From positions 1 to 64,000 of IMG/VR virus record IMGVR_UViG_3300049215_000407: DNA of 64,000 nt; one strand, written 5' to 3'. This DNA is from a virus. This document shows, one piece after another, positions 23,622-64,000 of the stretch. Position 1 is the first letter of the stretch. Each line of letters starts with the position of its first letter. A program made the translations under genes and the position numbers. The notes under the pieces are model-generated. The model was not told the DNA's origin and searched no databases. It saw only the letters and a program-made list of their open reading frames with translations.

Positions 23622-23629
23622 GGAGAGCC

Positions 23630-24839: not shown

Positions 24840-24845
24840 CCGCGA

Positions 24846-24851: not shown

Positions 24852-24858
24852 AAGGGTC

Positions 24859-26723: not shown

Positions 26724-26733
26724 GGTGCCCGTC

Positions 26734-26880: not shown

Positions 26881-26932
26881 TCCGTCAGGCGAGCGCCGCT
26901 TCAGTAGTCTCTACACGCGTTTCGGTGGTCGC

Positions 26933-27152: not shown

Positions 27153-27163
27153 TCCTCGTGCTG

Positions 27164-27169
27164 TAACCT
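27164..27169 (+). promoter_or_regulatory. Putative -10 box of a leaderless promoter
   Basis: TAACCT, six bases before ATG 27176, no ribosome-binding site. Confidence 0.4.
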
Positions 27170-27175
27170 GCGGCC

Positions 27176-30092: not shown

Positions 30093-30335
30093 TCAGTCTT
30101 TCTTGATGTAGCGCCCAACGCGCTGCGGTGTTCGGAGATTCGGATCGGGCGGTGCTGGCGCACGAGCGGCGGCGTCCGCTTCGCGAGAGATGCGCGTGCA
30201 ATCTGCACAAAGGAATTTGCCGTCCATTCGCCGAGACCACTGCGACCGACGATAGGGCTTCTTGAGACCGCAGCACGCGCACTGCTTGCGCACTTTGCGG
30301 TCGAGCACACCCGCACGAGAGCTTCGACGATCCAT
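30093..30335 (-). CDS. Small basic zinc-knuckle protein
   Basis: 80 residues from ATG 30335, whose first base is the last of the upstream stop (TGATG). CACC and CADC about 25 residues apart with basic residues between suggest nucleic-acid binding. Pro-rich tail. Confidence 0.5.
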   Translation of the reverse strand: MDRRSSRAGVLDRKVRKQCACCGLKKPYRRSQWSRRMDGKFLCADCTRISREADAAARAPAPPDPNLRTPQRVGRYIKKD

Positions 30336-40908: not shown

Positions 40909-42194
40909 TGAACGAAGAAAAAGCAGCCCCTTTGCCCGTCGACGGACGCGAGATCGTCGACCCGAAAGACATGAAGCGGCACCTGGAGCTGATCTCGCAC
41001 TCCGAAATCCAGTGTCACCAACGCTGTCCTCGGGAGCATCACTACCGCTATCGGCTGCGGCGGCGTCCCGTCGTCGAAGAAGCTCCCCTGGTGTTTGGGA
41101 AGCTCGTCGACGAGAGCTTGCAGGCTTGGTGGGAAGCGGGACCCCTTCACGGGCGCACGGCGATGCTCGGGAAGCTCGATCTGCTCGTGCTCGAAGAGAG
41201 AGCGCGCATCATGAAGGGCGGCAAGCCGCGCTTCGATGATTTCGAGGTCGTGAAGGCGCGCGCGTTGTTGATTGGGTACGACGCACGGTGGGCGAACGAG
41301 CCGTACGAAGTGATCCGCGTGCAGCCGATGTTCGTCACGCCGGTGTTCAACCCAGACACCGGCCGGCCGTCCAACACGTTCGAGCTCGGCGGCAAGCTCG
41401 ACGTACTCGTGCGCGATGTGCGCACGGGGGAAGTTGCGATCGTTGAAACGAAGACCACGAGCGACGACATCTCGATGACGTCGAGCTACTGGCACACCGT
41501 CTCGGCGACCGACCCGCAGGTGAGCACCTACTACAAGGGCGCACGCGCAATCCTCGAAGGCATGGGCATCAAGGAAGAGCCCGCGCGCTGCGTGTACGAC
41601 GTGATCCGCAAGCCCACGATCAAGCCCTACCGGGCCACACCCGTGGAGTCGCGCAAGTTTACGGAGCCGAAGAAGAAGAAGTGTCCCGAGTGCAGGAAGA
41701 AGAAGGCGATCGCTGCGCCGCATACCTTCGAGGTGAAGAACGGCGAACACGTTTTCAAAGAAACGTTCGACATGATTCCTGGCATGACGCTTTTTCGAGA
41801 GGACACGCGAGAGGTTTTGGAGGTCACGTGTCTCGATGGCGAGATCGTCACAGATCCGGGGGGCAAGCTCTACGCGAACCTTCGCGATCGCGACGAGACG
41901 CCGGAGGAGTTCTACGTGCGGCTCCTTACGGACATCAAGGAGCGTCCGGAATTTTACTACGCGCGCGGCGATGTGGTGCGGCTCGAACAGGACGAGATCG
42001 AGCACTCGCACGATCTCTGGCACACCGCGCGGATCATGCGCGAGATGCAACTTGCCAAGAGAGCGCCGCGTCACCTCGGGCAGTGCAAGCGCTTCGGGCG
42101 GTTCTGTAACTACTTCCCGGTGTGCTCGCACCTCACCACGATCGAGAGCTTTCCGATCGCCGAGGACAAGCACGAGGAGCTCAAGGAGATCTGA
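40908..42194 (+). CDS. Cas4/RecB-like nuclease with iron-sulphur cluster
   Basis: 428 residues, TGATG overlap. PD-(D/E)xK core: GGKLDVLVRD (Asp165), VAIVETKTT (Glu180-x-Lys182). Cys36 and Cys40 (CHQRCPREHHYRYR) together with C-terminal CKRFGRFCNYFPVC give the four cysteines that hold a 4Fe-4S cluster in Cas4/AddB-type nucleases. An extra CPECRKKK knuckle sits mid-protein. These enzymes trim DNA ends for recombination. Neighbours (Sak4-like ATPase, DUF669-like protein) fit a recombination module. Confidence 0.8.
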   Translation: MNEEKAAPLPVDGREIVDPKDMKRHLELISHSEIQCHQRCPREHHYRYRLRRRPVVEEAPLVFGKLVDESLQAWWEAGPLHGRTAMLGKLDLLVLEERARIMKGGKPRFDDFEVVKARALLIGYDARWANEPYEVIRVQPMFVTPVFNPDTGRPSNTFELGGKLDVLVRDVRTGEVAIVETKTTSDDISMTSSYWHTVSATDPQVSTYYKGARAILEGMGIKEEPARCVYDVIRKPTIKPYRATPVESRKFTEPKKKKCPECRKKKAIAAPHTFEVKNGEHVFKETFDMIPGMTLFREDTREVLEVTCLDGEIVTDPGGKLYANLRDRDETPEEFYVRLLTDIKERPEFYYARGDVVRLEQDEIEHSHDLWHTARIMREMQLAKRAPRHLGQCKRFGRFCNYFPVCSHLTTIESFPIAEDKHEELKEI

Positions 42195-50300: not shown

Positions 50301-50649
50301 CGCGCTCATGAAGGAAGATCAGGAAACCTTCATCGTGGTGCTCATCGACGTCCGCCAGAACTGCAGGGGCGTCGCTGAGATTCACCGCGGCGCAAGGTCC
50401 AGAGTGGCAACGAGCGTTCTCGACGTGATGCGCGTCGTGGTCGCGTCGGGGGCCGAAGGCTTCATCGTGTGCCACAACCACCCGAGCGGAAAGGCGATGC
50501 CCTCGGACGCAGATCGCGATCTTACGAAGGCCATCGAGCGGGCCGCGAAGCCCTTCAAGGGTGAGACGGCGTTTCTCGATCACGTCGTCATCGGCGCGGG
50601 CGAATACTACAGCTTCGCGGACAGCAAGCTCCATAAGGCGAAGAACTGA
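47332..50649 (+). CDS. Polyvalent protein with ADP-ribosyltransferase-like and RadC/JAB parts
   Basis: 1105 residues. N-terminus (HEWWHGTP, then AIHVGTLAAATQAL) is reminiscent of ADP-ribosyltransferase-like domains of phage polyvalent proteins. Two similar repeats (about 175-230 and 720-810) share FGATHV/WGATHV and end in a HWP motif. Coiled coil and Arg/Glu-rich parts lie between. The C-terminus (about 960-1105) is a RadC-type JAB domain with CHNHPSGKAMPSDAD and zinc ligands. Asn-Pro boxes occur at VRENPVSS and VRENPATD. Polyvalent proteins are often packaged and injected; here too that is inferred. It starts from its own leaderless promoter. Confidence 0.7.
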   Translation: MHEWWHGTPTGDLGPSTPHAIHVGTLAAATQALNARIGIPVTGKWDGSRTYGETKLAGQRTLRGRDEFLLTGHNCCDAPEEDYYPRERADRPIYAGNQHVRDEFRPNIFPVQIVGRMSNTPSTPMSDTRANATMAGQLKRGTAKRGYYYINEGEDAGSVSAVVPGLSHLVRENPVSSAADYPDFEAALQAASSRFGATHVVRQGNRSAVIYSPTSKGYERRSLSCDRGFFHWPKQADLVDEVPENAERVVDVLDLGFDPDAPPRREAAPQRRAAEEARGSDRERWDKLQSEFRRLTDEMTKVESEAHVKWGPHGLRYASRTLQTKHGKLVASRNRVYEKIFAMTQKLSPRDWGTGVPTHWIAGKLTFDDMVRPQSEPLSVTPPLAYGATTPMQEGAREMGAVREVMEGRGREGRRYESAQWLEFECEPATPTPELEDMAREFNHLVLEFLESYARTWSIDTSSLDADSFTWNAYASLVGHGVGLWEGDGDTGLRGEDEKKIDKALRTGWYAPGSARGKLHNLAHRISDECAMLQGPEGREAREEASIPTKAQLKIINAFRDRRLMGNPMRDSISTDGDTIYSYRMPIARRTSNGGVSIVDPAGAPSATTRNHIYGLQRTFTPAEIAGTQRAAEHDDDRGPETERMPAPASPPRLQPGYAFYTPSRRKGDWKKIPNDDWEHVVIGEDEIEKSNFVGYRLIDGSMHDIFEVYFSAYPREGRGYYAQLQTHTQGRGSAHEGAVLLDHMANDFSSPKEAIEHAQRAWGATHVDFHGTRIHPTVYGTKDGARWKKTLFKQKGKLHWPDKFSKGPKRLSGAIELTPVAAPTHTPPMRTPPMSPSIPPDDYERHLPSYSDEAREGSIDRRVPSADTRYTSRQSSQDALRDDVSFEGRWIGSVRGPFRSRQGDFYEWSTSGHSGRNGTRRHALNALVHAHKMRTGAREVRENPATDLQDAIPWVRVTRDPERYKEALARAQKIGPVDDARKVYELVGPALMKEDQETFIVVLIDVRQNCRGVAEIHRGARSRVATSVLDVMRVVVASGAEGFIVCHNHPSGKAMPSDADRDLTKAIERAAKPFKGETAFLDHVVIGAGEYYSFADSKLHKAKN

Positions 50650-50709: not shown

Positions 50710-51234
50710 ATGGCGAACGAAAACGTTGGCATCGAAGTGCTGGAAAAAGACATCCTCGAACGCGCGGGGATCGAACAGCGAGATGATCTTCCGATCACGA
50801 TCGACTGCACGTGGGGTACAAATCCAGACGGCAGTCCGCGAGTGTTCACGACCGGCGAGCCTCATCCGCTTCTTCCCGGACACCTCGTCTTCGCGATTTT
50901 CCAGAATCCTTCGGAGATCAAGGTCTACTCCCTCGCTCCGCAGACGAACGGATCGCAATCGCCTCCCAAAAGTCCCGCGGAAGCCAAGGCGCGAGCTCTC
51001 GAAGAGATGCGATCGAATCCGACGCGGACGACGCTCGTGAAAACGTCGCGCTGTTCAGTGACGGAGATCATGATCCTCGACGTCTTCGTGGCATCGATCG
51101 TCCAGGATTTGATCATGCTGGAGATCGAGACGTACGGCGAAACGCCGCCCGAAGAGCCGGGAAAAGACGCGCCGAAAGAACCCAGCCCCACGGGAACAAA
51201 GCCGCAACTGGTCCCTTCACCAGCGGGGTCGTGA
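50710..51234 (+). CDS. Hypothetical structural-region protein
   Basis: 174 residues; GGAGCG site. Beta-rich first half (PITIDCTWGTNPDG, HLVFAIFQN), a helix with MRSNPTRTTLVKTSRCSVTEIM (Asn-Pro again), and a Pro/Glu tail. No family recognised. Confidence 0.5.
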   Translation: MANENVGIEVLEKDILERAGIEQRDDLPITIDCTWGTNPDGSPRVFTTGEPHPLLPGHLVFAIFQNPSEIKVYSLAPQTNGSQSPPKSPAEAKARALEEMRSNPTRTTLVKTSRCSVTEIMILDVFVASIVQDLIMLEIETYGETPPEEPGKDAPKEPSPTGTKPQLVPSPAGS

Positions 51235-51247: not shown

Positions 51248-52321
51248 ATGAATTTCGTTGACATCGCGAACGAGAGCGTGGCGGTTGGAATCGATCCCGC
51301 GACGCTCTCGGCTGCCATGAAAGCTGTTCCGGTTCCTCTCGACATTGCTGATCTCGGCCTTCGAGTGACGGCCGACAACAACGCGATCGTCGTCAACAAC
51401 GTGACGCGCACCGTGCAGCTCGGGTTCAGTCCTTCGATCCCCGCGGCGATCGCGGCAAACCTTCGTAACGCGGATGGAGGATTCGAGCTCATCACGCTCG
51501 GCGCGCGTGGCCTCGATTGGATTCGTCCTCCCATCGTGACGGCACTTCCGGGCTCGACTGCACTCGCGCCTCTTCGCACGGCGCAATTCCAAGCGTTTCT
51601 TCGCGTACACCAGATCGATGTGCCGGTGGGCGGTGGCGGCGTCGGCTACAGCGCGACGCCGAGAGTGCGTCTCATCGGTGGGCTGCCTCCCGCGGGTCGA
51701 GTGATCACGTCGGCATGCGTGCGTCGCATTGCGATTACGGATCCGGGTCTCGGCTACGTGCCGGGAACGGTCGCTGTGATCGAGGGCGGCGGAAACGGAG
51801 GTGCGTCGCCGCTCACGCAAGCGAAAGCGACAATCACGCAAGATGCGTTCGGCCGCATCACCAGCATCACCCTCACGGACATGGGTGCGGGCTACATCCA
51901 AGAACCGGTCGTGAACTTCGTTCCTCCGGGCGGCATTGGACCGAACCGACGCGCGAAGGCGAGCGTCGCGCTTGCCGAAGGCACGCCGGCAACAGCGCAT
52001 GCGACGGTGGCTCTTGGTATCGTCACCGGGATCGTGCTCGACACCACGGGAAGCGGCTACGTCGGAGTTCCGGATGTTGTCATCATCGATCCGACCGGAA
52101 CGGGCGCGCGCGCGATTGCACGCATGGAGCTCGAACGTATTGATGTCCGGAGCCCTGGTTTGGGCTACACCGCTGCGTCGTCGATCGTCCTCACGCCTTT
52201 TTTCAAAGCTGCGTTCCCCGACGCGAGCGATCAGTCGCGGCCCTTCTTCGGGTTCATGAACGGGCTCTTGCGAGACCGTGTGATCACGCCGATTCTCACG
52301 CACACACCCGTTCTGAGCTAA
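51248..52321 (+). CDS. Virion-like protein with GxGY repeat domain
   Basis: 357 residues. N-terminal 120 residues are mixed; then four or five repeats of a motif with GxGY, P and Gly/Ala-rich strands (PGLGYVPGTVAVIEGGG, MGAGYIQEPVVNFVPPGG, GSGYVGVPDVVIIDPTG, PGLGYTAASSIVL), seen widely in phage fibre and baseplate proteins. Probably a surface or spike component. Ends with a helix. Confidence 0.6.
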   Translation: MNFVDIANESVAVGIDPATLSAAMKAVPVPLDIADLGLRVTADNNAIVVNNVTRTVQLGFSPSIPAAIAANLRNADGGFELITLGARGLDWIRPPIVTALPGSTALAPLRTAQFQAFLRVHQIDVPVGGGGVGYSATPRVRLIGGLPPAGRVITSACVRRIAITDPGLGYVPGTVAVIEGGGNGGASPLTQAKATITQDAFGRITSITLTDMGAGYIQEPVVNFVPPGGIGPNRRAKASVALAEGTPATAHATVALGIVTGIVLDTTGSGYVGVPDVVIIDPTGTGARAIARMELERIDVRSPGLGYTAASSIVLTPFFKAAFPDASDQSRPFFGFMNGLLRDRVITPILTHTPVLS

Positions 52322-52340: not shown

Positions 52341-53909
52341 ATGGAAAAATTCGAGAGGCTCGATCCCGGCGACGAAGAGCGCGACGAGGACGAGGAAGAA
52401 GAAGAGGAAGAGGAAGAAGACGGCGATCCACGCGACGCTCGTTCGCAGGGCGTTGGTGCGATTCCCGCGGTCTCGGCTCCCGCCGTCGTCCAAGCGACCG
52501 CGAGTCGCAAGAAGGGAACGGGCAGCTCACACCGAGGCCAAGAGATCAGGAAGCGCGGGCGCGTTCCAAACAACGCGACGACGCCCACGCAGGCCGATCT
52601 TTTGTGGCTCGACGTCTTGCAGCGCAAAGAGATCGTCTCGAACGGGATCGAGGCCGAGCATTTTTCGATCAAGGTCTACAGACTCGACGGCTCGCAAGCG
52701 ATCTATCTTACAGCGATCGACGGCATGCGCTGCGCGGGAGATGGACGAGACGGAAGCGCGGGCGACGCGCTCTTGCGCATTCTGACCGACGAAATTCACT
52801 GGCACTCGTCGAAGGGGCTCGCCGCGACGTACCAGCTCGAATTTTCGTTCAAGCGCGGCGGCACGATCTACGACAAAGGGAAGATCCGGCTCCCGAGCAC
52901 GCAAGAGATCGGGCAAATGCGAGCGGCAGAAATGGGTCTTGGAAAGCCGCCGAATCAGTACCCGCAGCAACAGGGCTATCCGCAGCAACCTCCTCCATAC
53001 GGGCCGCAGGGCTACGCGCCCCAAGGGTTTGGTGCGCCGCCGCCGCAGTACGGACCGGGCATGGGCAACGGCTATCCGCCGCCGTACGGCTATCCGCCCT
53101 ACGGATATCCGCCGCCGCCGCATCCGGGTTACCCCGGTTTAGGCGCTCCTCCCGCGCCGAGTACGGGAGATGAAGTCACCGATCTCAAAGAGCAAGTGCG
53201 CTCGCTGAGCGAAATGGTGCGCGACATGTGGCGCTTCGGCCCTGGAGGAATGCCTCAAGGAATGGGTGGATTTCCACCGGGATACGGACAGCCGCCGCCG
53301 CCGCAAGGACTTCCGATGAGCGCGCTCAGTGAGATGCAGCGGCACCTCGCGGGTTTCGGTCTCACGATCGCTCCAGCGCATCAACCGGGAACGGCGATGG
53401 TTCCCGCGGCATCAGGATTTCAAACGGGCCTCGGTCAGCTCAAAGAGCTCGCCGTGGGCGTCTCCGCACTCAAGGAAGTTGCCGACGCGCTCAACGGCGT
53501 CTTCAACATGAACGCGCAGCAAGTCGTCGAAGAACCGAAGCCCGAGCCGGACTTCGAGATGGTCGAAGTCCCCGGATCGAAGTGGCCGAACGGCGAGCCC
53601 ATTCGCTATGCGCGCGACGACAAGGGCATCAACTGGTTCGGGACTGCGATGGGCAACGGCTACGCGATGGACAGGTTCGGGACCACGATGGCTGGTCTCG
53701 GAAGGCGCATCGTCTCGCAGATCAACAAAGAGCAAGGTGTCGGCGCGCTCGCGGATGAAGAGGAAGAGGAAGAGGAAGAGGAAGAGCAGCCGCAACAACA
53801 GCAACAGCCACAACAATCTGTTGTGACTCCTCCCCCTCAGAATCCGCCGCCGCCACGCATGAATGGCGCGCAAAATTACCCGCCTAGGGACGACGGCTTT
53901 TCGCTGTAA
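52341..53909 (+). CDS. Low-complexity scaffold-like protein
   Basis: 522 residues. Poly-Glu/Asp N-terminus (about 9-30), a folded central part (about 85-195, LLWLDVLQRKEIV to FKRGGTIYDKGKIRLP), then a Pro/Gln/Gly/Tyr-rich stretch (about 195-275) of repeated YPPP/YGPQ-like units, a helical part and again a long Glu run plus Gln repeats. Oppositely ordered acidic and Pro/Gln segments are typical of assembly scaffolds or condensate-forming proteins. Function unknown. Confidence 0.5.
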   Translation: MEKFERLDPGDEERDEDEEEEEEEEEDGDPRDARSQGVGAIPAVSAPAVVQATASRKKGTGSSHRGQEIRKRGRVPNNATTPTQADLLWLDVLQRKEIVSNGIEAEHFSIKVYRLDGSQAIYLTAIDGMRCAGDGRDGSAGDALLRILTDEIHWHSSKGLAATYQLEFSFKRGGTIYDKGKIRLPSTQEIGQMRAAEMGLGKPPNQYPQQQGYPQQPPPYGPQGYAPQGFGAPPPQYGPGMGNGYPPPYGYPPYGYPPPPHPGYPGLGAPPAPSTGDEVTDLKEQVRSLSEMVRDMWRFGPGGMPQGMGGFPPGYGQPPPPQGLPMSALSEMQRHLAGFGLTIAPAHQPGTAMVPAASGFQTGLGQLKELAVGVSALKEVADALNGVFNMNAQQVVEEPKPEPDFEMVEVPGSKWPNGEPIRYARDDKGINWFGTAMGNGYAMDRFGTTMAGLGRRIVSQINKEQGVGALADEEEEEEEEEEQPQQQQQPQQSVVTPPPQNPPPPRMNGAQNYPPRDDGFSL

Positions 53910-53957: not shown

Positions 53958-54293
53958 ATGGCCAAGCGTCGGCGCGAAAATCCGATCAAGACGCGCGACA
54001 AGATCCTCATCGGTGGAGGCGCTGCAGTGCTTCTCGGTTTCGGTATTTTCTTGCTCACGCGCTCGAAGGCTGACACGGGAACCGGATCGACGGCAAACAA
54101 AGGTGGGGGCACGCAAAACGGTGGAGGCGGCGGTGGCGGCAGTGGGGGCGGGACCAACGGTGGAGGCGGCGGCGGCACCAACGGCGGTGGTGGTGGCGGC
54201 ACCGTGTCGACGGTGAAAGATTCGATGGCCTACGCTCCGCCGCAGCAAATCAACAAGCCTCCCGCACACCTAAAGGGCGGCATCAAGGCGTGA
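53958..54293 (+). CDS. Anchored Asn-Pro-box protein (family member 1)
   Basis: 111 residues. RRRENPIKTRDK, then the anchor ILIGGGAAVLLGFGIFLL, then Gly/Asn repeats and a short end (AYAPPQQINKPP). The N-terminal 30 residues are nearly identical in plan to those of the gene at 55787. A single-pass membrane protein with a floppy arm, likely part of the virion membrane. Confidence 0.6.
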   Translation: MAKRRRENPIKTRDKILIGGGAAVLLGFGIFLLTRSKADTGTGSTANKGGGTQNGGGGGGGSGGGTNGGGGGGTNGGGGGGTVSTVKDSMAYAPPQQINKPPAHLKGGIKA

Positions 54294-54294
54294 C

Positions 54295-55761
54295 ATGCGT
54301 CTTCCGCACCTCTCGAAGACGCAGAAGAAGGTCGCCATCGGCGGTGGTGCGGCTGTCGGGGTTCTCGCGCTGACGTGGCTTGCGCTTCGCGGATCGAAGT
54401 CGAGCGCATCGGACACACCGAATACCGGAAGCGTCACGCTCACTGCGACGAAGACGATGGCGGTGCGTGCGTCGCCACCTCCGGCTGATCCCACCGATCG
54501 CATTGTGAAAAGGAACACGCGCGTGCTCGCGTGGCCGTCGAGCTCGAACAAGAACGGGATGGCGTACATCAAGTTCACGGACGGTGCGCACGTTCGCGGC
54601 GGGTGGGTGAGCGACAACGCCGTCTTGCGTGACTCCGAGCAGACGCCTTGGAGTATGCCCGCGCCCATACAAAAGGGATTCTCCGGAGTCGGCGCGCTTC
54701 AAGTGCAGGTCCCCTCGACGCAGCAGCAAGAAGTCAACGCGCAGGGATCGTCGGTGAACGCCACCGTCATCAGTGATTCGTTGATGTTTGTGCATCCCGA
54801 GGACAAGGCGAAGCTCGAAACGCTGCAGAAGGAATACTTCGCGCTCATCGGTCTCATGGGATCAGGAAAAGGTCTCGTCATCCCCAACGAAGACACGTTC
54901 CGAAAGGTCTACACGCACGGTACTGGGCGAGTGCTCGGATTGATTCCGGGCATCTTCTTCAAGGACGGAAAATTTACGAAGGACAACCTCACGAATCACT
55001 CGTGGTGTCAGACGTGGGCGGCGCAAGTTGTGGGCTTCGGAAGCGATTACCTTTGGCCGTTCTACAACCAGAGCGTCTACCGCTACGGGCCGAACGTGAC
55101 GCCCGACCCGAATCTCGATCGCTACCCGAACAGTCCGATCGATCCGGTCAAAGACAATGCCGCGTACGAGGCAGCTCTCAGCGCGGCGGTCGAAGCCGAC
55201 ATCCAAGCCGCTCTGCAACGTTCGAGCTTCGGAATCATTCTCGACCAGATCGAGCAAATCATGGGGACCCCGGCATTCGGGATCATCTTCGGCAAGGATG
55301 CTCCGCGTGATGTCTTCATTCTCGAAGTGGCTCCCGACGTCCTCGATGGGCTCGCTCGTTTTGGTCACGACTTCGCGAGCGACAACGACACGACCAAAAA
55401 CCTCGACAGCAAGAGCAAGCAAGCGATCCTCGACACCGTGAACGGGAACATCAACGGAAAGCAGATCTCCGGCAACCAGCTCAAGTCGATTCAAGCATCG
55501 GTTGGCACGTACATGGTCGGCGGCGTGATCGACATGTTCGAGTCGCACAACACGGACAAGGACAAAGGCGTCGTGAACCCATGCATCCGGGAGCTCGATG
55601 CGGGGCTTGTGATCAGCATGCTCATTGCGGTGGTGAGCGCGTTCTTGGCGGTCGTTTCTCTTGGCAGCGCAGGGCTTTTGGGTCCTGTATTTCAAGCTGT
55701 CTATTGGTCTCTCTATACAGCGCCGAGCGCGATCAAGGGTCTGGCCGATTTGTCGAAGTGA
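54295..55761 (+). CDS. Anchored virion-like protein (family member 2)
   Basis: 488 residues, one base after the previous stop. Anchor with the same KT..K..IGGGAAV plan (SKTQKKVAIGGGAAVGVLAL) but no Asn-Pro box. Then an SH3-like segment (RIVKRNTRVLAWP, VRGGWVSDNAVL), a helical body with DNDTTKNL and a final hydrophobic region (LDAGLVISMLIAVVSAFLAVV and another). Probably spans or bridges the membrane; function unknown. Confidence 0.55.
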   Translation: MRLPHLSKTQKKVAIGGGAAVGVLALTWLALRGSKSSASDTPNTGSVTLTATKTMAVRASPPPADPTDRIVKRNTRVLAWPSSSNKNGMAYIKFTDGAHVRGGWVSDNAVLRDSEQTPWSMPAPIQKGFSGVGALQVQVPSTQQQEVNAQGSSVNATVISDSLMFVHPEDKAKLETLQKEYFALIGLMGSGKGLVIPNEDTFRKVYTHGTGRVLGLIPGIFFKDGKFTKDNLTNHSWCQTWAAQVVGFGSDYLWPFYNQSVYRYGPNVTPDPNLDRYPNSPIDPVKDNAAYEAALSAAVEADIQAALQRSSFGIILDQIEQIMGTPAFGIIFGKDAPRDVFILEVAPDVLDGLARFGHDFASDNDTTKNLDSKSKQAILDTVNGNINGKQISGNQLKSIQASVGTYMVGGVIDMFESHNTDKDKGVVNPCIRELDAGLVISMLIAVVSAFLAVVSLGSAGLLGPVFQAVYWSLYTAPSAIKGLADLSK

Positions 55762-55773
55762 CCGAGCTCGGCG

Positions 55774-55779
55774 TATGCT
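55774..55779 (+). promoter_or_regulatory. Putative -10 box of a leaderless promoter
   Basis: TATGCT, seven bases before ATG 55787; TTGTCG lies 18 bases upstream and could be a -35. Confidence 0.5.
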
Positions 55780-55786
55780 GAGCCGC

Positions 55787-56302
55787 ATGGCACGACGGCG
55801 CGAGAATCCGCTCAAGACGCGAGACAAGGTTCTCATCGGCGGTGGCGCTGCGGTCGCTCTGATCGGGATCACGTGGGCCTTGACGCGATCGTCGAAGAGC
55901 TCGACGTCGGGCGGTGGCGGTGGCGGTGGCGGTGATGGGCAACAGCAAGGCCCCCCTCCTCCGAATCAGCCGCCGCCGAAACAAGGCAGTCCTCCCGCTC
56001 CGCCAGGCAACGGTTTCAACGGATCGAACCCGGCGAACTTCTTCGGGAGCGTGGGCGACTACGCGAACCAGCTCGCGAAGCTCGGGTACAACTACCAACA
56101 GATTTACAACTACCTCGACTACTTCGGCGGCGTGAAGATGCTCAAGAACTTCGGCATCGATCTGCCGACGATCCAACAGATCTTCAGCGGCATCGATCTG
56201 AAGTCGCTCCAAGGTGCTCTTCAGGGCATCGACTGGGGTTCACTCGCGGGCGCTCTCAAGGGGATCGATCTCAGCGCGTTCCAAAATATCCGGATCGGGT
56301 GA
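55787..56302 (+). CDS. Anchored Asn-Pro-box protein (family member 3)
   Basis: 171 residues. RRRENPLKTRDK and the anchor VLIGGGAAVALIGITWAL match family member 1; then Gly/Pro-rich linker and a helical domain with repeated IDLKSLQGALQGIDWGSLAGALKGIDLSAF units. The helical repeat suggests a lipid-binding or oligomer-forming piece. Virion membrane protein by inference. Confidence 0.6.
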   Translation: MARRRENPLKTRDKVLIGGGAAVALIGITWALTRSSKSSTSGGGGGGGGDGQQQGPPPPNQPPPKQGSPPAPPGNGFNGSNPANFFGSVGDYANQLAKLGYNYQQIYNYLDYFGGVKMLKNFGIDLPTIQQIFSGIDLKSLQGALQGIDWGSLAGALKGIDLSAFQNIRIG

Positions 56303-56305
56303 CGC

Positions 56306-56536
56306 ATGGTTCGTCATCGTCCAAGGCGGTATCGCTCGAACCCGACCGCGCGTGAGATCGGTGCGCTCATCATAACGACCGCGATCACGGCGGGCGTGGC
56401 GACCATCATCACGTGGTGGGTGACGAAAGAGCTCGAATCGAAAAAGCAGACGCAGCAACAGCAACCGCCGCAACTTCCTCCGGCTCCAGCTCCGAACTAC
56501 GGCGGCAACAATCCGGGAGAAGGGTACTGGGCCTGA
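56306..56536 (+). CDS. Small anchored Asn-Pro-box protein
   Basis: 76 residues, three bases after the previous stop. RYRSNPTAREIG, then a transmembrane segment (LIITTAITAGVATIITWWV) and a Gln/Pro-rich tail. Same plan as the neighbours; overlaps the next start. Confidence 0.55.
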   Translation: MVRHRPRRYRSNPTAREIGALIITTAITAGVATIITWWVTKELESKKQTQQQQPPQLPPAPAPNYGGNNPGEGYWA

Positions 56537-58041
56537 TGTTCACCGCAGAAACCGATCGCAGCTTGGGCTTGCCCGTCGTGCACGAGCGCTACCCGGATGG
56601 CGAAGAAGGAATCCAGAAGTCGATCAAGACGATCTGCACGAAGGTCCGCGAGGGCATGGTCACCGCGGTGATGAAAGAATTCGCGGGCAACGTGCTCAAG
56701 CAAACGCCGGGTGCTCTGCACGGTGGGACGCGAGAACGCGCGGACGCGCTCTGTAATTTCGTTGCGACTACAACCGGCTATGCACCAGACGCGCTCGGCT
56801 CAGAGCAGATCCAGAGTGCTCAGATCACGCTTTGTGTGCCAGGCGCGCAGCTCTGCATCCCGATTCGCGATTGCGACGATGGCGTGGTGGCGGTCGGTAC
56901 GCTCATCGGCGCTGCAGGAATGGATGTCGAGGTGGTGCGCCAGATCTTCGGTGGCGGTCATCAACAGCACGTGCTTCTCGAAGTGAAGCTCGAAGACGGT
57001 TCATGGTACCCGCTCGATCCGTCGAACAAAACGCACCCTTGCGGCGTGAAAGCGCCGGCACAACGCGAGACGAGGCACTCGCCCTTCGACTCGAAGTTGA
57101 CGGGACTCTCGGATCAGGCTCAATTTGTCGGCATGGGCGCACTTCCTGTTTTGGTGTGGCAAGAACCTCATTCTGGTTTTCCTGGGAGATGGGCTCGACT
57201 TCCGAGCGATGCGAAGCTCGAAGGTCTCGGCGGGATCCTCCCGAGCATTTCGGATCTTCAACCGCAGCTCAAATGGCTCGGAACGATCTGGAGCACGATC
57301 GATCCGAAGGGGCGCTCGTGGGACACGGCGCTCGCCGACGCGTACAACCGAGCGGAGCAAAAGAATTGGGTCGCGGGCGATTCGACGTCGTACTTCGATC
57401 TCACCGCGATCATCGTGCGCTCGGCGATTCTCTCGCGCGTGGCGGGTGGGATGCCGTCTCCCGGACCCGACGCGGCAGCCGCGCTCGACAACTCGTGGAA
57501 GCTCATCGCCACGAAGCTCGGCTACACGTCGCAGACTTCGATGGACGATCTCAAGACCGCAGCGAAGCGAAACAATCAGGTCGCAGCGCTCGCGCTCTTC
57601 GAGCTCATCGCCGTCATCATCGCGATCGCTGCGCTCGCGGTCGTCTACTGCTTCGCGATCTACTACGCAGCGAAGATCGTCGATTCGCTCCTCACGCGTC
57701 TCGTCGCGTTCGCCGAAGAGGTTTGGCGCAACGTCCAGATCCAAAAGATGATCGACCGGCACGTCAACAACCCGGATCTTCCGTGGGATCCCGAAGAGAA
57801 AAAGCTCCTCGACCAGCTCGAAAAACAGCAAGACGAGACGCACAAAGCTGTCATCAAGCCTCCGGATCTTTCTCCTCCGGGTGCGCCGCCGTCGTTCTGG
57901 GATTCACCCTGGGCGATTTTCGGGATCGTAACGGTCGTCGCTGGAACCGCAGCCGCAGTCGTGTACCGGAAAGAGATCAAGGGCGCGCTCGACCGACACG
58001 GCAGCCGATCAGGCAGGTCGACTGCCATCGTCGCAACGTGA
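56536..58041 (+). CDS. Transglutaminase-like membrane protein
   Basis: 501 residues, TGATG overlap. Residues about 100-170 match the transglutaminase-like core: RDCDDGVVAVGTLIGAAG with Cys113, HVLLEV with His145, WYPLDPS with Asp161. That fold usually cleaves peptides or cross-links proteins. Later come a hydrophobic helix (LALFELIAVIIAIAALAVVYCFAIYY), charged helices and another hydrophobic helix (WAIFGIVTVVAGTAAAVVY). A membrane-bound processing or cross-linking enzyme is likely; substrate unknown. Confidence 0.65.
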   Translation: MFTAETDRSLGLPVVHERYPDGEEGIQKSIKTICTKVREGMVTAVMKEFAGNVLKQTPGALHGGTRERADALCNFVATTTGYAPDALGSEQIQSAQITLCVPGAQLCIPIRDCDDGVVAVGTLIGAAGMDVEVVRQIFGGGHQQHVLLEVKLEDGSWYPLDPSNKTHPCGVKAPAQRETRHSPFDSKLTGLSDQAQFVGMGALPVLVWQEPHSGFPGRWARLPSDAKLEGLGGILPSISDLQPQLKWLGTIWSTIDPKGRSWDTALADAYNRAEQKNWVAGDSTSYFDLTAIIVRSAILSRVAGGMPSPGPDAAAALDNSWKLIATKLGYTSQTSMDDLKTAAKRNNQVAALALFELIAVIIAIAALAVVYCFAIYYAAKIVDSLLTRLVAFAEEVWRNVQIQKMIDRHVNNPDLPWDPEEKKLLDQLEKQQDETHKAVIKPPDLSPPGAPPSFWDSPWAIFGIVTVVAGTAAAVVYRKEIKGALDRHGSRSGRSTAIVAT

Positions 58042-58047
58042 AACGAA

Positions 58048-58293
58048 ATGAGCACGGACGTTGAGCTTGAACCGGCCCCGCCCGTCGCCGATGACGATGG
58101 GCGAGATCACATTCTCGATCAGGAAGCGAACCCCCCCGAAGCTATAATTTGGACGTTCCTTTGTGGAGAATCCGTAGTTGTTGGCGACGACGGCATGATG
58201 TTTCCTCCTGAAGACGATTGTTATTTGCTCGGGTCGCCCGGTTACAAAAAAGCGACGTGCAAACGGTGTCGCAAAGCAGCCGGCCTACCGTGA
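58048..58293 (+). CDS. Small zinc-knuckle protein
   Basis: 81 residues. Acidic start, then FLCGE, an aromatic strand and CKRC at the end. Function unknown; overlaps the next GTG. Confidence 0.45.
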   Translation: MSTDVELEPAPPVADDDGRDHILDQEANPPEAIIWTFLCGESVVVGDDGMMFPPEDDCYLLGSPGYKKATCKRCRKAAGLP

Positions 58294-58781
58294 GCGAGCG
58301 TGGCCTGATCTGCATGGGGCGCGACGTGTTCTTCGTGCTTCGCGGAGGTCGCGAGGTGTCTGCGCGGCGAAGGCGCGATGGAATGCTCTACGACTCGTCG
58401 GGCTACTACTGGCCGAAGTGCAGTTTGCTCGTCGCTCCATTCGAGCAAGGGCGTGACACCTGCGACGTGAGCAAGGCGCGTGATTTTTTTGGTCGCAGAG
58501 TCGATGTGCTCGAAGGACGAGTGCCGCAACTTCCGCCGAAAGACATGCACGCGTGGCGTGCAGTCGGCGAAGTGGATCAAGTTTTCTACGATCGCGCCGG
58601 CAAACACGACGGACCGTTCCGGCACAAATTCAATTCGCCGCACGGAATGTTCAAACTCGTTGCGCTCTTCAAGAAGCGTGTTGCCGAGTCGAAGGTGATT
58701 CTCTACAGCTTGAACGGCTGTTATCGGCTGGAGCTCCCGCGGGGTTGCATTGTCGATGATCGCGGCTTCGTCTTGCCCTGA
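58290..58781 (+). CDS. Hypothetical protein
   Basis: 163 residues from GTG. Aromatic and basic, with strands (DVFFVLRGGREVSARRRR, KVILYSLNGCYRLELP). Last gene before a 109-base control region with four tandem 12-bp repeats. Confidence 0.5.
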   Translation: MSERGLICMGRDVFFVLRGGREVSARRRRDGMLYDSSGYYWPKCSLLVAPFEQGRDTCDVSKARDFFGRRVDVLEGRVPQLPPKDMHAWRAVGEVDQVFYDRAGKHDGPFRHKFNSPHGMFKLVALFKKRVAESKVILYSLNGCYRLELPRGCIVDDRGFVLP

Positions 58782-58801
58782 TCCGAAAAATAGTTTTACG
58801 C

Positions 58802-58849
58802 ACTCAAGCGGTTACACAAGCGGTTAGTGAAGCGGCTACTCAAGCGCGT
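58802..58849. repeat. Four tandem 12-bp repeats (ACTCAAGCGGTT)
   Basis: Units ACTCAAGCGGTT, ACACAAGCGGTT, AGTGAAGCGGCT and ACTCAAGCGCGT, head to tail, upstream of the promoter of the gene at 58891. Confidence 0.85.
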
Positions 58850-58877
58850 AGTCATCACGTGCGCATCCGCGGTGATG

Positions 58878-58883
58878 TAGACT
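58878..58883 (+). promoter_or_regulatory. Putative -10 box of a leaderless promoter
   Basis: TAGACT, seven bases before ATG 58891; the 12-bp repeats end 28 bases upstream. Confidence 0.5.
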
Positions 58884-58890
58884 TCCGCGC

Positions 58891-60543
58891 ATGACCATCC
58901 GCTACAGCGATCTCATGGCAAAGATGCGGGATCAAGCGCCTGATCTCGCAGCAACGCGATCGCGCAGAGCGTCTGCGCCAGTGTCTGCGGCAGTGTCTGC
59001 GCCAGTGTTCCATGCGGACGACAAGACGAAGCGCAGACGCAAGAGCGCGCGCACGAGCGCGCGTGCGCGCTTGACGAAAGGAAGCAAGCGGGGTTCTCTA
59101 AAGAAAATGCGTGCTCGAACCGCACCGCGGAGAGCACGTGAATCCACCCGGAGAACAACCGTGGCCAAAGCATCCCCCGCACAACGTCGCGCCCTCAAGA
59201 AAGCCCGTGCTGCAAAACGTCGGTACGCGCGAGCTCCGCGTCGCGGCGCACGCGAGATGAAGGGACAAGTTCGGCGCAACAGGGCCGGCAAATTCAGTGC
59301 GACCGGAAGCAAGATCGCTGGTCGGTTCACTGGTGAAGCACGGAGGCGTCGTCGACGGACTCGTCGCGCGTACGAAGCGCCGCGTCGTCGTCGACGTCAC
59401 TACGCGCGCGAGATGGCGGCTGCAGCTCCGCGTCGTCGTCGCCGCGCAGGTCGTCGCCGCCACTACGTGAAGGGGCACTACTCGCACGAAGCTCGTCGTC
59501 GTCACGGCCGTCGCCGTCACCGCTACGCGCGCGAGTTCGCCGCTCAAGCGCGTGGCCGAGGTCGTCGTCGTCATTCCCGCCGCTACCGCGGCGCGCTGGA
59601 GAATCCGCTCTCCGGCATGGAGCTCGCGATCACGATCTTCACCGGCTCGGTCGGCTACATGGCTGCCGAGATCGCGGATCGCATGATGGCGGTCCGCAAC
59701 GGCGCACCGCTCGTCACGCTCGCCGTCAACGGCGGCAAGGCACCGCAGCTCCCGATGTACGACGACTGGCCCCGCCTGGTCGTTGGCGCAGCCATCACGG
59801 GTGCACCGCTCGTTGCGAGCGCGTTCATCAAATCGCCCACGTGGCGATCGGCGCTGCAGACGATGGGCATCGGCGCGGGTCTCCGCACCGTGGGCCACAT
59901 CCTCGTCAGCGTTGCAGCCAAGCTCACCGCGCCCGCGGCGGATGCGAAGCAAACCACTGCACAAGTCCAGAAGAACATCTTCGCGTTCGAGCAGTCGCTC
60001 GCGTCCGCGTACGACACGTGGAACAAGCAGACGGATCAACAGAAGACGGACGCCGAGAAGGCGTACGAAACAGCGCAAGGCACTGCGGGTCTTCCGCAGG
60101 GAACCGGTGCATGTCCGACGTGCAAGCGCACCGATGGTCTCGGCGCATGCTGCGGGCGCATGTCGCAACAGCCGCCGCAAGCGCAACCGCCCCTTCCTCC
60201 TCCTCCTCCGATCACGGCCACGCCTCCGGCTTCACCTCCGCCTGTTTCCATGCAGCCGCCGATGGTGCCGCAAGCGCCGCCTCCTCCGTACAATCCGCCC
60301 GCGGTCACGCCGCCTCCGGTGGTTTCACGTCCTCCGGGTGACGTCTCGCGTCCTCCGGGATCGATGCTTCCGGGAAGCCCGCCCGCGATCGCAATCCCTG
60401 CGACGCCAGCATTCGTTCCTTCGCCGGCTTCGCCTCTCGTGGGCGCGGGTCGAGGCATGGGCATGCCCCAGCGCTTCATGGCGGGAACGGGTTCGGTCGC
60501 GCCCCGACCGAATTTCAACTGGGGCGAGGACGCCGCGGAGTAA
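58891..60543 (+). CDS. Arg-rich membrane-anchored DNA-binding candidate
   Basis: 550 residues. Residues about 45-225 are dominated by Arg, Lys and Ala, with repeated HYAREMA/HRYAREFA units, like a protamine or histone tail. Then YRGALENPLSG (Asn-Pro box), hydrophobic segments (MELAITIFTGSVGYMAAEIA; LVVGAAITGAPLVASAFI), a helical part, CPTCKRTDG...CC, and a Pro-rich end. It could tie the genome to a membrane inside the virion, an inference from charge plus anchoring. Starts from its own leaderless promoter. Confidence 0.55.
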   Translation: MTIRYSDLMAKMRDQAPDLAATRSRRASAPVSAAVSAPVFHADDKTKRRRKSARTSARARLTKGSKRGSLKKMRARTAPRRARESTRRTTVAKASPAQRRALKKARAAKRRYARAPRRGAREMKGQVRRNRAGKFSATGSKIAGRFTGEARRRRRRTRRAYEAPRRRRRHYAREMAAAAPRRRRRAGRRRHYVKGHYSHEARRRHGRRRHRYAREFAAQARGRGRRRHSRRYRGALENPLSGMELAITIFTGSVGYMAAEIADRMMAVRNGAPLVTLAVNGGKAPQLPMYDDWPRLVVGAAITGAPLVASAFIKSPTWRSALQTMGIGAGLRTVGHILVSVAAKLTAPAADAKQTTAQVQKNIFAFEQSLASAYDTWNKQTDQQKTDAEKAYETAQGTAGLPQGTGACPTCKRTDGLGACCGRMSQQPPQAQPPLPPPPPITATPPASPPPVSMQPPMVPQAPPPPYNPPAVTPPPVVSRPPGDVSRPPGSMLPGSPPAIAIPATPAFVPSPASPLVGAGRGMGMPQRFMAGTGSVAPRPNFNWGEDAAE

Positions 60544-60630
60544 TCACTCCGCGACACGAAGTGTTTGTTTGAGGTTCAACAGCTCGGGTCGAGCTCGATG
60601 TAGCGCCGAGTGAACAAAGGAAAGAGACAG

Positions 60631-61989
60631 ATGGAAACCGCTCAGCAACCGAAATCGCCTCGCACCAAGGTCAATCGCACGCCTCCCACGGAGCACGAGC
60701 GAAAGCTCCGCACGATTGGCCTCGGGCAGCGTCCCGACGAGCATCAGATCAAGGCCGCGGGTCTTGGTTCGCTCCAGAAGGATGCGGGTCTCGGCGTTTA
60801 CGATCTGCTCGACGCAGTTCGTGAATCCGTGAAGTGCGCAATCTGGAACGTGCCCGTGATCGAGTCCTCGAAGGGCACGTTCCTCGGACCGCTCCTCGAC
60901 ACGGACGCGAATCGCCTCTTCGGCGATCGCATCGATCCGTTCGGATGGTCGATTGCGCAGGACGGCATCGATCAGGTCGACACCACGCTCGCGCAAAACG
61001 GCGAGCTTCAGGTGCCGACGCTCGTGTGCGGTGTCGGCTGGCACGTGAACGGCGATCCCGCGGGCTTCTCGATGATCGGAAACGGCGTCACGCGTCCGCT
61101 CGGAGCAGTCGCGGGTCACCCCGCATCGCCCGACGTCTTCACCGCGAACGACCTCGCCAACAACGTCATGGGCCTCGGCGAAGGTCAGACGATGGAGATG
61201 GCCACCCTCGCGTGGGGCTGGTGGACCAACTACATGTTCTGGCAGCAAGCTCGCGGCTACCACCTCCGGTGGATGGTCGGGCAGCACACGAACATCTTCG
61301 ACGAGTTCCTCCGGAACACGGCGTACTTCCCGACGAACGCGCAGGAAGGATCCTCGGGATCGAGCGACGTCGACACGATGTTCTTCATCCGTCGAACGAA
61401 CAACCGCTACGACCAGCTCGGCTCGGGGCAGGTCTTCTTGCCGGTGTCGCACGTGCGCATCGGGTCCGTGCTCGCGGGCGCGGCCAACGCCGGAATCTTC
61501 CGACCGTCGCGCTCGGGCGATCTCGCCCCCGTGACGTACGGCGGCATCGACCTCCGGAAGCTCCTCGGCAACAACTCCGAGTTCAAGAAGATGACGATCC
61601 CGTACTTCTTGGACAAGGGCATCCCGATCGGCCTCTACGCGCAAGAGTCGGACAAGGCGCAAGCCGATCTGATGCGCGCGTACCTCTCGATCACGTACGG
61701 CTTCGGCCAGACGATTCCCCCGCAGGTGACGCCGGACGTGAACTTCACGCCGGGCAACACCCCCACGGGCGCGAGCGTCATGCTGGAGCAGACGCTCGAC
61801 GTGCCGGCTCCGTTCCTCGTCTCGCAAGCCGTGCAGACGCAGCGCCGGATGTTCAAGGGCGGCGAGTTCAAGCAGACCATCCACCTCAAGGGCTTCGAGG
61901 TCGACTCGGATTGGTACACGATGCTGCAGAACAACCCGCAGCTCCGTGACGCGTTCCTCTGCGAGTGCGGCTGCGGCTGGCCGAAGTGA
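60631..61989 (+). CDS. Candidate major capsid protein
   Basis: 452 residues; AAAGGAAAG upstream of ATG. Few charged runs, many aromatic and beta-prone segments (WSIAQDGIDQVDTTLAQNG, FFIRRTNNRYDQLG, VMLEQTLDVPAPFLV, CECGCGW end). Length, composition and place fit a capsid subunit; two beta-rich companions follow at 62118 and 62776. No HK97-fold or jelly-roll motif can be named by eye, so this remains a candidate. Confidence 0.45.
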   Translation: METAQQPKSPRTKVNRTPPTEHERKLRTIGLGQRPDEHQIKAAGLGSLQKDAGLGVYDLLDAVRESVKCAIWNVPVIESSKGTFLGPLLDTDANRLFGDRIDPFGWSIAQDGIDQVDTTLAQNGELQVPTLVCGVGWHVNGDPAGFSMIGNGVTRPLGAVAGHPASPDVFTANDLANNVMGLGEGQTMEMATLAWGWWTNYMFWQQARGYHLRWMVGQHTNIFDEFLRNTAYFPTNAQEGSSGSSDVDTMFFIRRTNNRYDQLGSGQVFLPVSHVRIGSVLAGAANAGIFRPSRSGDLAPVTYGGIDLRKLLGNNSEFKKMTIPYFLDKGIPIGLYAQESDKAQADLMRAYLSITYGFGQTIPPQVTPDVNFTPGNTPTGASVMLEQTLDVPAPFLVSQAVQTQRRMFKGGEFKQTIHLKGFEVDSDWYTMLQNNPQLRDAFLCECGCGWPK

Positions 61990-62066
61990 TTCGGCGGGGA
62001 AACTGACGCTCCCCTCGTAATTGCGGCGTCACGCTTGGGTAGTCATTCCCAGGCGCTCCAACTCTC

Positions 62067-62104
62067 CCTGAGCCCCAACGGTCGAAAGACCCGAGGGGCT
62101 GAGG
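62067..62104 (+). other. RNA hairpin with GAAA loop
   Basis: Outer stem CCCT-G-AGCCCC pairs with GGGGCT-G-AGGG (one G/G mismatch); inside, GGTC and GACC close a GAAA tetraloop. Lies in the 128-base gap between two structural genes; probably a terminator-like or mRNA-control structure. No T-run follows. Confidence 0.5.
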
Positions 62105-62117
62105 GCGTGAAGGCACC

Positions 62118-62759
62118 ATGAACGAACAGAAACCTACCGCGGTCGGCCTCGGAGGCATCGGGCTTCCGGATGAAGTCTACGGATGGATCCGAAGAGGAGC
62201 ACCGGGCATCGCCCTCGCGCGCGCTCTCGGCGTGCCCTTTGGACCGTGGACCCCGCAGGTTCGCTTCACGTTCGACACGCCCGATCCGCAGGTCTCGCCT
62301 GTCGTCGGGTTCTCGGGCGAGACGCGCATCACACAAGACACGATCGTCCAGTGCCTCATCGTTCGCACCTCGATCGATCGCACGCCGATCTCGCCGTTCG
62401 ATCAGATGGGCGACAACGCGTTCAACTTCACGCAGCCGATCGACGCGACGCTCGACATCACGGGCACGCCCAGGTACACGGTCACGCCCGATTTCACTCC
62501 CTTGCAGAATTTGATGGACGCGTTCAACGGCAACTCCGAGTGGCCGTGGGCGTGGGTCCTCACGGATCAACAGGGCGTGAAGATGCAGTTCCAGAGCCGC
62601 ATTCGGCTTCCGGATTTCCCGGTGACGGTCACCGCGACGTTCCGATGCTGGACTCCGATCACGGATCTTCTTCGCAACGCGTCGACTCGTGATGTCGTCG
62701 CCCAACTGAGAGAGCTCGGATACACGATCCCGGATCGGTACCTCGACTACTTGCGCTAA
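62118..62759 (+). CDS. Structural-region protein
   Basis: 213 residues. Beta-rich (RFTFDTPDPQVSPVVGFSGETRI, ATLDITGTPRYTVTPD), with a conserved-looking WPWAWVLTD and an amphipathic end. Probably a minor capsid protein or capsid companion by position. Confidence 0.5.
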   Translation: MNEQKPTAVGLGGIGLPDEVYGWIRRGAPGIALARALGVPFGPWTPQVRFTFDTPDPQVSPVVGFSGETRITQDTIVQCLIVRTSIDRTPISPFDQMGDNAFNFTQPIDATLDITGTPRYTVTPDFTPLQNLMDAFNGNSEWPWAWVLTDQQGVKMQFQSRIRLPDFPVTVTATFRCWTPITDLLRNASTRDVVAQLRELGYTIPDRYLDYLR

Positions 62760-62775
62760 GGGGGCGCACACCCCG

Positions 62776-63726
62776 ATGGCGAGAGGCGCACGCGCAGTCG
62801 ACTACAGCCCGAACCGATTCTTGATCGGCACGGAAGCGCTCACCGCGCATCCGCGTCGTCGCGTGGAAATCACATCGACGGGCGTCGACGAAGATCTCCA
62901 GGATCTTGCATCCGATCCGTTTGGGAGCCTCTCGTGGGTCGGCCTTCGTGTGCCGTCGCACGTGACGGTCACGCCGCAAAACCGCTACCTCTTTTTGCTC
63001 TGCTCACTCGACGTCGCGGACGGCGATCGCATGCGCCTCGTCGGGCTTCGCCACGGTTACTCGCTCGGCATCCGGCAATCGCAGCGCGTGAACGAATTTT
63101 GGGTGCGAAACCCGGTCTTCAAGCCACCGCGCGGAAATATCTCGTGGCACCTTCGCGTGCGTCCGCTTCGCCAGTTGAACAACCCCGGCAACGGACCGAT
63201 TCAACCGCCGCTCCAGAATTTCGCGTTTCGCGACGCGCAATCACCCGCACTTCTCTATCTCAATGCAGCGGCGGGATTCTTCTATCCGCTCCTCACGGAT
63301 TACCAGCCGCCGAATCGAGGCATGCCATACGGGCGAGGGGTCACACCGGAATTCGGCACCTTCTACGATCTCAAGACGGATTGGCAGGACGCAAGCGACT
63401 GGCGCGCGATCGACATCCCGGTCGTGGGTCCGGCACGCGTGCAATTCTTCGCGAGCGTGCAGCAAACACCGCAACAGAAACAGCCGGTCGTGCAGCCCTT
63501 GGATTTTTTGCCGCTCGGCGAGAGCGGCGAAGAGCAGTATCTCGCGAACTTCCCGGAAGCGCAGATCTGGCGCGTCGCGGGGGCGCTCGCTGCCGAGTTC
63601 GAGGACGGCGAGGAATTCCGATCGATGATCGATCATCCGTCGCAGTGGACGGATCGCAAAGATCTCGAAGCCGTGCTGAAAGAGCTTCGCGAGATGAATG
63701 CGACGCTCAAAGGGAGCCAAAAATGA
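62776..63726 (+). CDS. Structural-region protein
   Basis: 316 residues. Beta-rich (SHVTVTPQNRYLFLL, NISWHLRVRPLRQL, RVQFFASVQQT), Pro-rich loops and a helical end. Likely virion component; family not recognised. Its stop overlaps the next start. Confidence 0.5.
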   Translation: MARGARAVDYSPNRFLIGTEALTAHPRRRVEITSTGVDEDLQDLASDPFGSLSWVGLRVPSHVTVTPQNRYLFLLCSLDVADGDRMRLVGLRHGYSLGIRQSQRVNEFWVRNPVFKPPRGNISWHLRVRPLRQLNNPGNGPIQPPLQNFAFRDAQSPALLYLNAAAGFFYPLLTDYQPPNRGMPYGRGVTPEFGTFYDLKTDWQDASDWRAIDIPVVGPARVQFFASVQQTPQQKQPVVQPLDFLPLGESGEEQYLANFPEAQIWRVAGALAAEFEDGEEFRSMIDHPSQWTDRKDLEAVLKELREMNATLKGSQK

Positions 63727-64000
63727 GCAGCAACGGCGTGATGCTTCAGGACTACGTGCCGAACGCGATCAACAACCTCACCGAAGAAATTTGGTGTGCG
63801 GGTGCGGTGATTCCGGCCGGCAAAAAGGTCGTGATCGGTCACATGCGCGATGGCTGGCTCGAAGTCACGTTCACGATGGGCAAGACGCAGGACTTCATCG
63901 GCATGGCGATGGTCCCGCCTTCGGTCGTCGGGATCGACGAGCCGACGCGATTTCCCGGCGTCGGCTTCATGCCTCAAGGCGTCGCCGCGATGGCGGTGCG
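63723..64000 (+). CDS. Structural-region protein (3' partial)
   Basis: 92 residues visible before the right edge, ATGA overlap. Beta-rich start (VMLQDYVPNAINNLTEEIW, VVIGHMRDGWLEVTF). Family unknown. Confidence 0.5.
   Translation, partial: MSSNGVMLQDYVPNAINNLTEEIWCAGAVIPAGKKVVIGHMRDGWLEVTFTMGKTQDFIGMAMVPPSVVGIDEPTRFPGVGFMPQGVAAMAV

Follow-up and report, generated by a model that had tools for sequence, protein, structure and literature searches.

Most tailless double-stranded DNA (dsDNA) phages (Varidnaviria) share a hallmark, a packaging ATPase of the FtsK/HerA superfamily. PRD1 (Tectiviridae) and PM2 (Corticoviridae) have an annotated packaging ATPase, genomes of 10-15 kb (circular in PM2), many membrane proteins in the virion gene block and no tail genes. 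A 2018 survey of double jelly-roll viruses covered tailless prokaryotic dsDNA genomes of about 7-18 kb, and reported tailless viruses with small genomes and no packaging ATPase, namely the Odin group and FLiP, the latter with single-stranded DNA (PMC5894146). The largest named example that we checked is the membrane-containing phage SSIP-1 (PMC6356626), with a circular dsDNA genome of 43,788 bp and an annotated structural ATPase. Here we describe the IMG/VR record IMGVR_UViG_3300049215_000407 (64,447 bp), of which bases 1-64000 (the window) were analysed and the remaining 447 bases also read; genes are named by their first coordinate in the window. We conclude that this element probably represents a new type of tailless phage, large and membrane-containing, its particle being encoded by a module that runs from a radC gene (47332) through the contig junction to a GroES-like gene ending at 3779, about 3.8 kb. 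We favour this reading because the genome is a closed circle, profile searches detect no terminase, portal or HK97 capsid, a second genome is built alike and the fraction of membrane proteins is like that of PRD1.

The ends of the contig carry a 174-bp direct repeat (bases 1-174 and 64274-64447); the single mismatch between its copies is perhaps a population polymorphism or an assembly error. When one copy is removed, a circle of 64,273 bp results, in which an open reading frame (ORF) from 63723 crosses the junction to 1042 and encodes an intact protein of 530 amino acids (aa) with C-terminal membrane segments. Because of the terminal repeat and the intact ORF spanning the junction, this is a complete circular dsDNA phage genome of 64.3 kb, of which the window is nearly all, and gene absences therefore carry weight. 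The interval to which the initial annotation referred, 53958-64000, is truncated where the contig happens to end. Phage-type genes elsewhere in the circle encode a primase/helicase, an exonuclease, a Sak4-like protein and a serine recombinase, and a head/tail-fibre domain of phages lies at 21093 (PHROG, 5.5e-14). Given these replication and recombination genes and the fibre domain, the element does look like a phage.

A relative was found with a degenerate DNA pattern round the transglutaminase motif of gene 56536 (in the looser form CDD...WxPxxDP). This genome, IMGVR_UViG_3300005617_000005 (G027), is a 77,874-bp contig with a 50-bp terminal repeat, giving a circle of 77,824 bp. It closes within the orthologue of 51248, which then encodes 354 aa and is 44% identical across its full length. 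The relative carries the whole virion module in unchanged order: radC, 50710, 51248, 52341, an NP-box gene, 54295, two further NP-box genes, the transglutaminase-like gene, 58314, the Arg-rich gene, 60631, 62118, 62776, the junction gene, 1264 and the GroES-like gene. A few additional small genes lie between its transglutaminase-like gene and the 58314 orthologue. Identities of module and fibre proteins between the two genomes are 25-67%, with 52% for 60631, 49% for 62118, 47% for 56536 (over 540 columns), 65% for the RadC domain (over 167 aa) and, among the shared fibre genes, 50% for 21822 and 67% for 23630. In contrast, most replication genes are unshared: the DNA polymerase, helicases and methyltransferase of G027 are its own. 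G027 also encodes a HerA-like ATPase that has winged helices. The integration gene also differs (a serine recombinase at 5882-6757, - strand, in the window; a tyrosine integrase at 23958-25028, - strand, in G027), and it seems that integration modules can be swapped between these genomes. Since two circles that are otherwise mostly different both keep this block, these results imply that the module works as a unit, the content of which is in keeping with a virion.

Other searches returned no further carrier of the module. No relatives of 60631 or 62776 were found in IMG/VR by 8-mer back-translation, nor of 60631 in GTDB genomes, although such pattern searches demand near-exact matches and more distant relatives may be missed. 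In tblastn searches 60631 matched neither the phage collection nor any of 72,556 plasmids, and the alignment of the two 60631 sequences, used as a query, recovered G027 only. Hand-made DNA patterns produced nothing beyond chance matches when built on a strict CDDG motif, on the ENP box or on a 60631 motif, and the relatives to which the AAA+ gene at 7962 led have early genes in common with the window genome but not the virion module. A distant transglutaminase-like protein with the same CDD/W-P-x-D-P motif is encoded by three viral contigs of 35.1-35.3 kb (L111, L113 and L122), which have none of the other module proteins; their near-equal sizes suggest complete genomes of one group.

The initial annotation had seen neither a terminase nor a portal gene on the contig, and profile searches of the whole closed circle bear this out. 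No large terminase was detected with PF03237 in the window genome or with phrog_2 in either genome, and neither PF04860 (portal) nor PF05065 (HK97 capsid) matched the window genome or G027; control genomes were positive in these searches. By a six-frame Walker-A scan and family searches, the recognised P-loop proteins are limited to an AAA+ protein (7962), the Sak4-like protein (42978) and helicases, and no P-loop protein of the circle fits a terminase. Three candidates were rejected. A lone Walker-A match inside 54295 is not kept in the G027 orthologue; portal-like matches of 52341 (E 0.27-0.89) are low-complexity; and a 631-aa protein of G027 that PHROGs labels 'terminase large subunit' (phrog_2666) is placed with HerA by both Pfam and NCBIfam.

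Membrane content was compared by one simple hydropathy rule, applied in the same way to all genomes. Membrane segments are called in 8/16 module genes of the window genome (0.50) and 9/20 of G027 (0.45), as compared with 10/21 in PRD1 (0.48), 3/10 in PM2 (0.30) and 6/24 in SSIP-1 (0.25). The tailed phages lambda (1/20; 0.05) and mycobacteriophage Catdawg (2/17; 0.12) have one or two such genes each. The virion gene block is membrane-rich in the manner of the internal-membrane phages of the PRD1/PM2/SSIP-1 type.

These data bear directly on the alternative that the element is a tailed phage, with head, portal, terminase and tail genes diverged past profile detection and with its membrane proteins serving as an unusual ejection apparatus. 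Such a phage would account for the fibre domain at 21093, for an early cassette (7962-10890) that is present in tailed mycobacteriophages and other phages, and for the matches of the 51248 product to PHROG virion, connector and baseplate families (down to 2.8e-12). The last of these are confined to a Gly-rich repeat region, which matches many unrelated families. However, a complete circle that has no P-loop protein fitting a terminase, and two genomes without terminase, portal or HK97 capsid by profile, are not what a tailed phage would lead one to expect. Furthermore, G027 has no long tape-measure-like gene, its longest module protein (547 aa) being too short for a usual tape measure, and membrane genes make up a share 4-10 times as large as in lambda and Catdawg, the two tailed phages measured. 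We consider a tailed phage unlikely.

All genes of the module lie on the + strand. The first, 47332-50649, encodes a protein of 1105 aa with an ENP box ahead of a C-terminal RadC-like JAB domain (Pfam RadC, 3.2e-26), in which the residues H-N-H-P-x-G...P-S-x-x-D are invariant between the two genomes. It is followed by 50710-51234 (174 aa; 35% over 141 aa with an orthologue at the same place in G027), by the Gly-rich repeat virion-type protein of 357 aa (51248-52321) and by an acidic/Pro-rich protein with several G-[LVM]-G sites (52341-53909). The anchored Asn-Pro (NP)-box proteins described in the initial annotation were recovered as three single-span proteins, each with a counterpart at the same place in G027: 53958-54293, in which RRRENP precedes the transmembrane (TM) segment (G027 2150-2491); 55787-56302, paired by place and build with G027 3561-4121 (phmmer 6.8e-6); and 56306-56536, of 76 aa (G027 4150-4386, E 8e-6). 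The RRRxNP box ahead of a membrane segment recurs in G027, with R-rich/NP/TM starts at corresponding places, and our guess is that the NP box is a sorting or topology signal. Between the first two lies a two-TM protein of 488 aa (54295-55761; 31% over 306 aa with G027 2501-3544).

Two further anchored proteins that had been singled out earlier also held up. The first (56536-58041), a transglutaminase-like protein with two TM segments, has a weak Pfam match in the window genome (E 0.068) and a stronger one in G027 (E 1.4e-4; 22.6 bits against a cut-off of 23), with Cys113, His145 and Asp161 invariant. The second (58891-60543; 32% over 315 aa with G027) consists of about 240 Arg/Lys-rich, protamine-like residues followed by an (E/D)NP box, a TM segment and a Pro-rich C-terminus. 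It has the same build in G027, and we propose that it may be a membrane-anchored DNA-condensing protein. A conserved protein of 155 aa (58314-58781; 50% identity with G027 7370-7846) is encoded between them. The junction gene, which runs from 63723 through 64000 to contig base 64273 and continues from window base 1 to 1042, is 44% identical over its C-terminal 232 aa to G027 13568-14560 and encodes a putative anchored surface protein. Next to it, 1264-2253 specifies a C-terminally anchored protein with a basic tail and G-[LVM]-G sites (42% over 155 aa with G027 14565-15209). The module ends with a GroES-like co-chaperonin of 285 aa (2922-3779; Pfam Cpn10, 6.5e-19); this product looks like a fusion of two GroES-like halves, each of which matches one of two separate tandem genes of G027 (16383-17143, L125).

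The candidate for the major capsid protein is the 452-aa product of 60631-61989, the most similar long protein of the shell block between the two genomes. It is followed by two further shell-block proteins, of 213 aa (62118-62759; G027 11786-12532) and 316 aa (62776-63726; 41% with G027 12552-13571). By the hydropathy rule none of the three has a membrane segment, and all are among the better conserved module proteins. No match to 60631 was found in phages, plasmids, PDB sequences, Pfam, PHROGs or NCBIfam. AlphaFold2 (AF2) models of 60631 alone (predicted local distance difference test, pLDDT, 31) and of 62118 with one orthologue (pLDDT 46) were unusable, and a Foldseek search with the latter gave no significant fold match (best E 0.71, probability 0.08).

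An FtsK-like packaging ATPase had been proposed as a positive test for a tailless phage. No FtsK/HerA-superfamily ATPase was found in the window genome; the 631-aa HerA-like protein occurs in G027, where a GKRGSGKS P-loop is followed by winged-helix repeats. The window genome does encode, on the - strand at 30335-31462, a winged-helix-repeat protein homologous to the C-terminal part of that ATPase (BLASTP 1.5e-7). Since the window genome is without the HerA-like ATPase that G027 has, either packaging would do without this ATPase, or its function would come from the host or from a different protein.

The ATPase result also bears on a second alternative, in which there is no icosahedral shell and the particle is a budding membrane vesicle, as in pleolipoviruses and plasmaviruses, with 60631-62776 encoding matrix or spike proteins and the protamine-like protein condensing the DNA. 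Half of the module genes encode membrane proteins, one of them Arg-rich and anchored, no capsid family is matched and the window genome has no packaging ATPase, all of which would suit a vesicle. However, the three shell-block proteins, conserved and devoid of membrane segments, have the features to be expected in a shell, the co-chaperonin genes that close the module fit the folding of an abundant shell protein, and G027 does have a HerA-like ATPase. We therefore regard a vesicle as quite improbable. A non-viral reading, in which the circle is a plasmid or the like and the module builds a surface structure bound to the membrane, might be suggested by the serine recombinase and the want of a recognised capsid protein. 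It is very improbable given the phage-type Sak4-like protein, exonuclease, primase/helicase and head/tail-fibre domain, a 60631 gene unmatched in the plasmids, and the mainly structural-type genes kept between two divergent circles.

Several points weigh against a tailless membrane phage as well. The argument leans on what is missing from two complete genomes, together with membrane content, and no third genome of the kind is known; the capsid candidate gave no usable fold; no module protein matches any known tailless-phage family; the FtsK/HerA ATPase is missing from the window genome; and 51248 does match families named connector or baseplate. In line with this, the central inference of the initial annotation, a large tailless membrane phage, is supported by the circle, the absences, the relative and the membrane fraction, and the beta-rich capsid that it read in 60631 stays a candidate, given the unusable structure predictions. 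Its statement that known phages of this kind have small genomes fails for SSIP-1, but genomes of 64 and 78 kb still exceed that of SSIP-1 (43.8 kb), as they do those of the survey.

The window genome resembles PRD1 and PM2 in its many virion-block membrane proteins and absence of tail genes, PM2 also in being circular, SSIP-1 in its large circular dsDNA genome, and the Odin group and FLiP in being probably tailless and in having no packaging ATPase found. It differs from PRD1, PM2 and SSIP-1 with respect to the ATPase, from all but SSIP-1 in their small genomes, from FLiP in being dsDNA, and from the Odin group and FLiP in having no demonstrated double jelly-roll protein. At the sequence level, the two proteins searched (60631 and 56536) had no match to PRD1 or PM2 in the phage collection, and comparison of SSIP-1 with the window proteins gave weak, short matches only and no convincing similarity. 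Taken against the open-access literature, the two circles point to a lineage, as yet undescribed, of bacterial viruses that are large, tailless and probably endowed with a membrane.

Module proteins repeatedly contain a short motif, G-[LVM]-G and then a small residue, which in many cases lies close to the N-terminus or between low-complexity stretches. For the window genome, the module set has 19 occurrences of G[LVM]G[AGSQMV], against a shuffled mean of 4.1 (maximum 11 in 500 shuffles), and all other proteins together have one, against 5.4. The pattern was chosen after looking at this genome and was held fixed for G027, in which the module has 18 occurrences against 3.2 (0/500 shuffles reach 18) and the remaining proteins 1 against 8.1. 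Enrichment in the module is thus about 5-fold in both genomes, and the composition of disordered stretches may add to it. GLG sites are kept in the orthologues of 60631 and 62118 though the spacing between them varies, and three fall among the N-terminal 57 residues of 60631. The motif is possibly a cleavage site at which a protease trims virion precursors. Candidates for that protease, to judge from conserved residues, would be the RadC/JAB protein 47332, with its invariant JAMM residues, or the transglutaminase-like 56536, with its invariant Cys, His and Asp. A motif of this kind in a module headed by a RadC/JAB gene suggests a possible role in maturation proteolysis for a phage RadC-like protein.

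The results presented above suggest a model of the particle. The major shell protein would be the 60631 product, synthesised with a propeptide at its N-terminus and folded by the phage co-chaperonin, and 62118 and 62776 would supply further shell or vertex proteins. The NP-box, transglutaminase-like and two-TM proteins, whose TM segments are predicted by hydropathy, would be located in an internal membrane, to which the anchored 58891 protein would draw and condense the DNA, while the junction gene product and 1264 would form C-terminally anchored surface proteins. A virus protease, either RadC/JAB or transglutaminase-like, would trim virion proteins at G-[LVM]-G sites. Fibres encoded at 21-24 kb would bind the host, and anchored proteins from 25-28 kb would help to open the cell wall. 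More tentatively, and as a possibility that we hold to be less likely than the tailless membrane phage as such, the two genomes may represent a new family-level lineage of 64-78 kb circles with tailless membrane particles, shell proteins unrelated in sequence to known capsids, membrane-anchored protamine-like DNA condensation, no obligatory virus packaging ATPase and G-[LVM]-G maturation by a JAMM-type (RadC-like) or transglutaminase-fold protease.

If a tailless membrane phage is correct, two closed circles with an otherwise unmatched virion module raise the size limit of tailless dsDNA phages, and a large circular contig that lacks a terminase is not necessarily a plasmid or a fragment. The module would also supply concrete genes for a virion type missed by capsid- or terminase-based virus finders.

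Outside the module, a putative host-binding block (21093-24085, + strand) comprises the head/tail-fibre domain (21093), a fibre-like protein of 599 aa (21822) and a small partner (23630). It is followed by three genes for membrane-anchored proteins with predicted TM segments (25513, 26304 and 27176, within 25513-27973, + strand), the last with a counterpart in G027 (45% over 92 aa). The products of 25513 and 27176 had been described as tail-anchored lysozymes; the TM segments are there, that of 27176 being internal and not at the end, but no lysozyme family was matched in Pfam, PHROGs, NCBIfam or PDB sequences.

Two lipoprotein-like genes, at 15053-15721 and 18947-19435, encode Cys-rich products that have Asp/Ala/Gly linkers; the latter gene is kept in G027 (40549-41034; 37%). 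We take this lipoprotein style to be typical of Myxococcota, and Myxococcota as host is a guess from the style only. A recombinase scan for the host gave one Methylobacterium match only and indicated no host. A small protein (12923-13513) carries HEVAHLQGLRH, a zinc-metalloprotease pattern (HExxHxxGxxH), and has no family match above noise and no G027 counterpart. The early cassette at 7962-10890 encodes an AAA+ ATPase and proteins of 278 and 110 aa, and recurs in viral contigs that differ in other respects, some of them 138-140 kb long; its AAA+ gene also occurs in corndog-type mycobacteriophages. Two of the 138-140 kb contigs (G002, L062-L068; G003, L069-L075) combine the AAA+ cassette with a GroES-like gene and have no phrog_2 terminase match. 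Finally, a VapE-like helicase domain at 32628-35018 (- strand) has a strong family match and a Walker A motif that seems degenerate (GLQRVNKN as against GxxxxGK[ST]).

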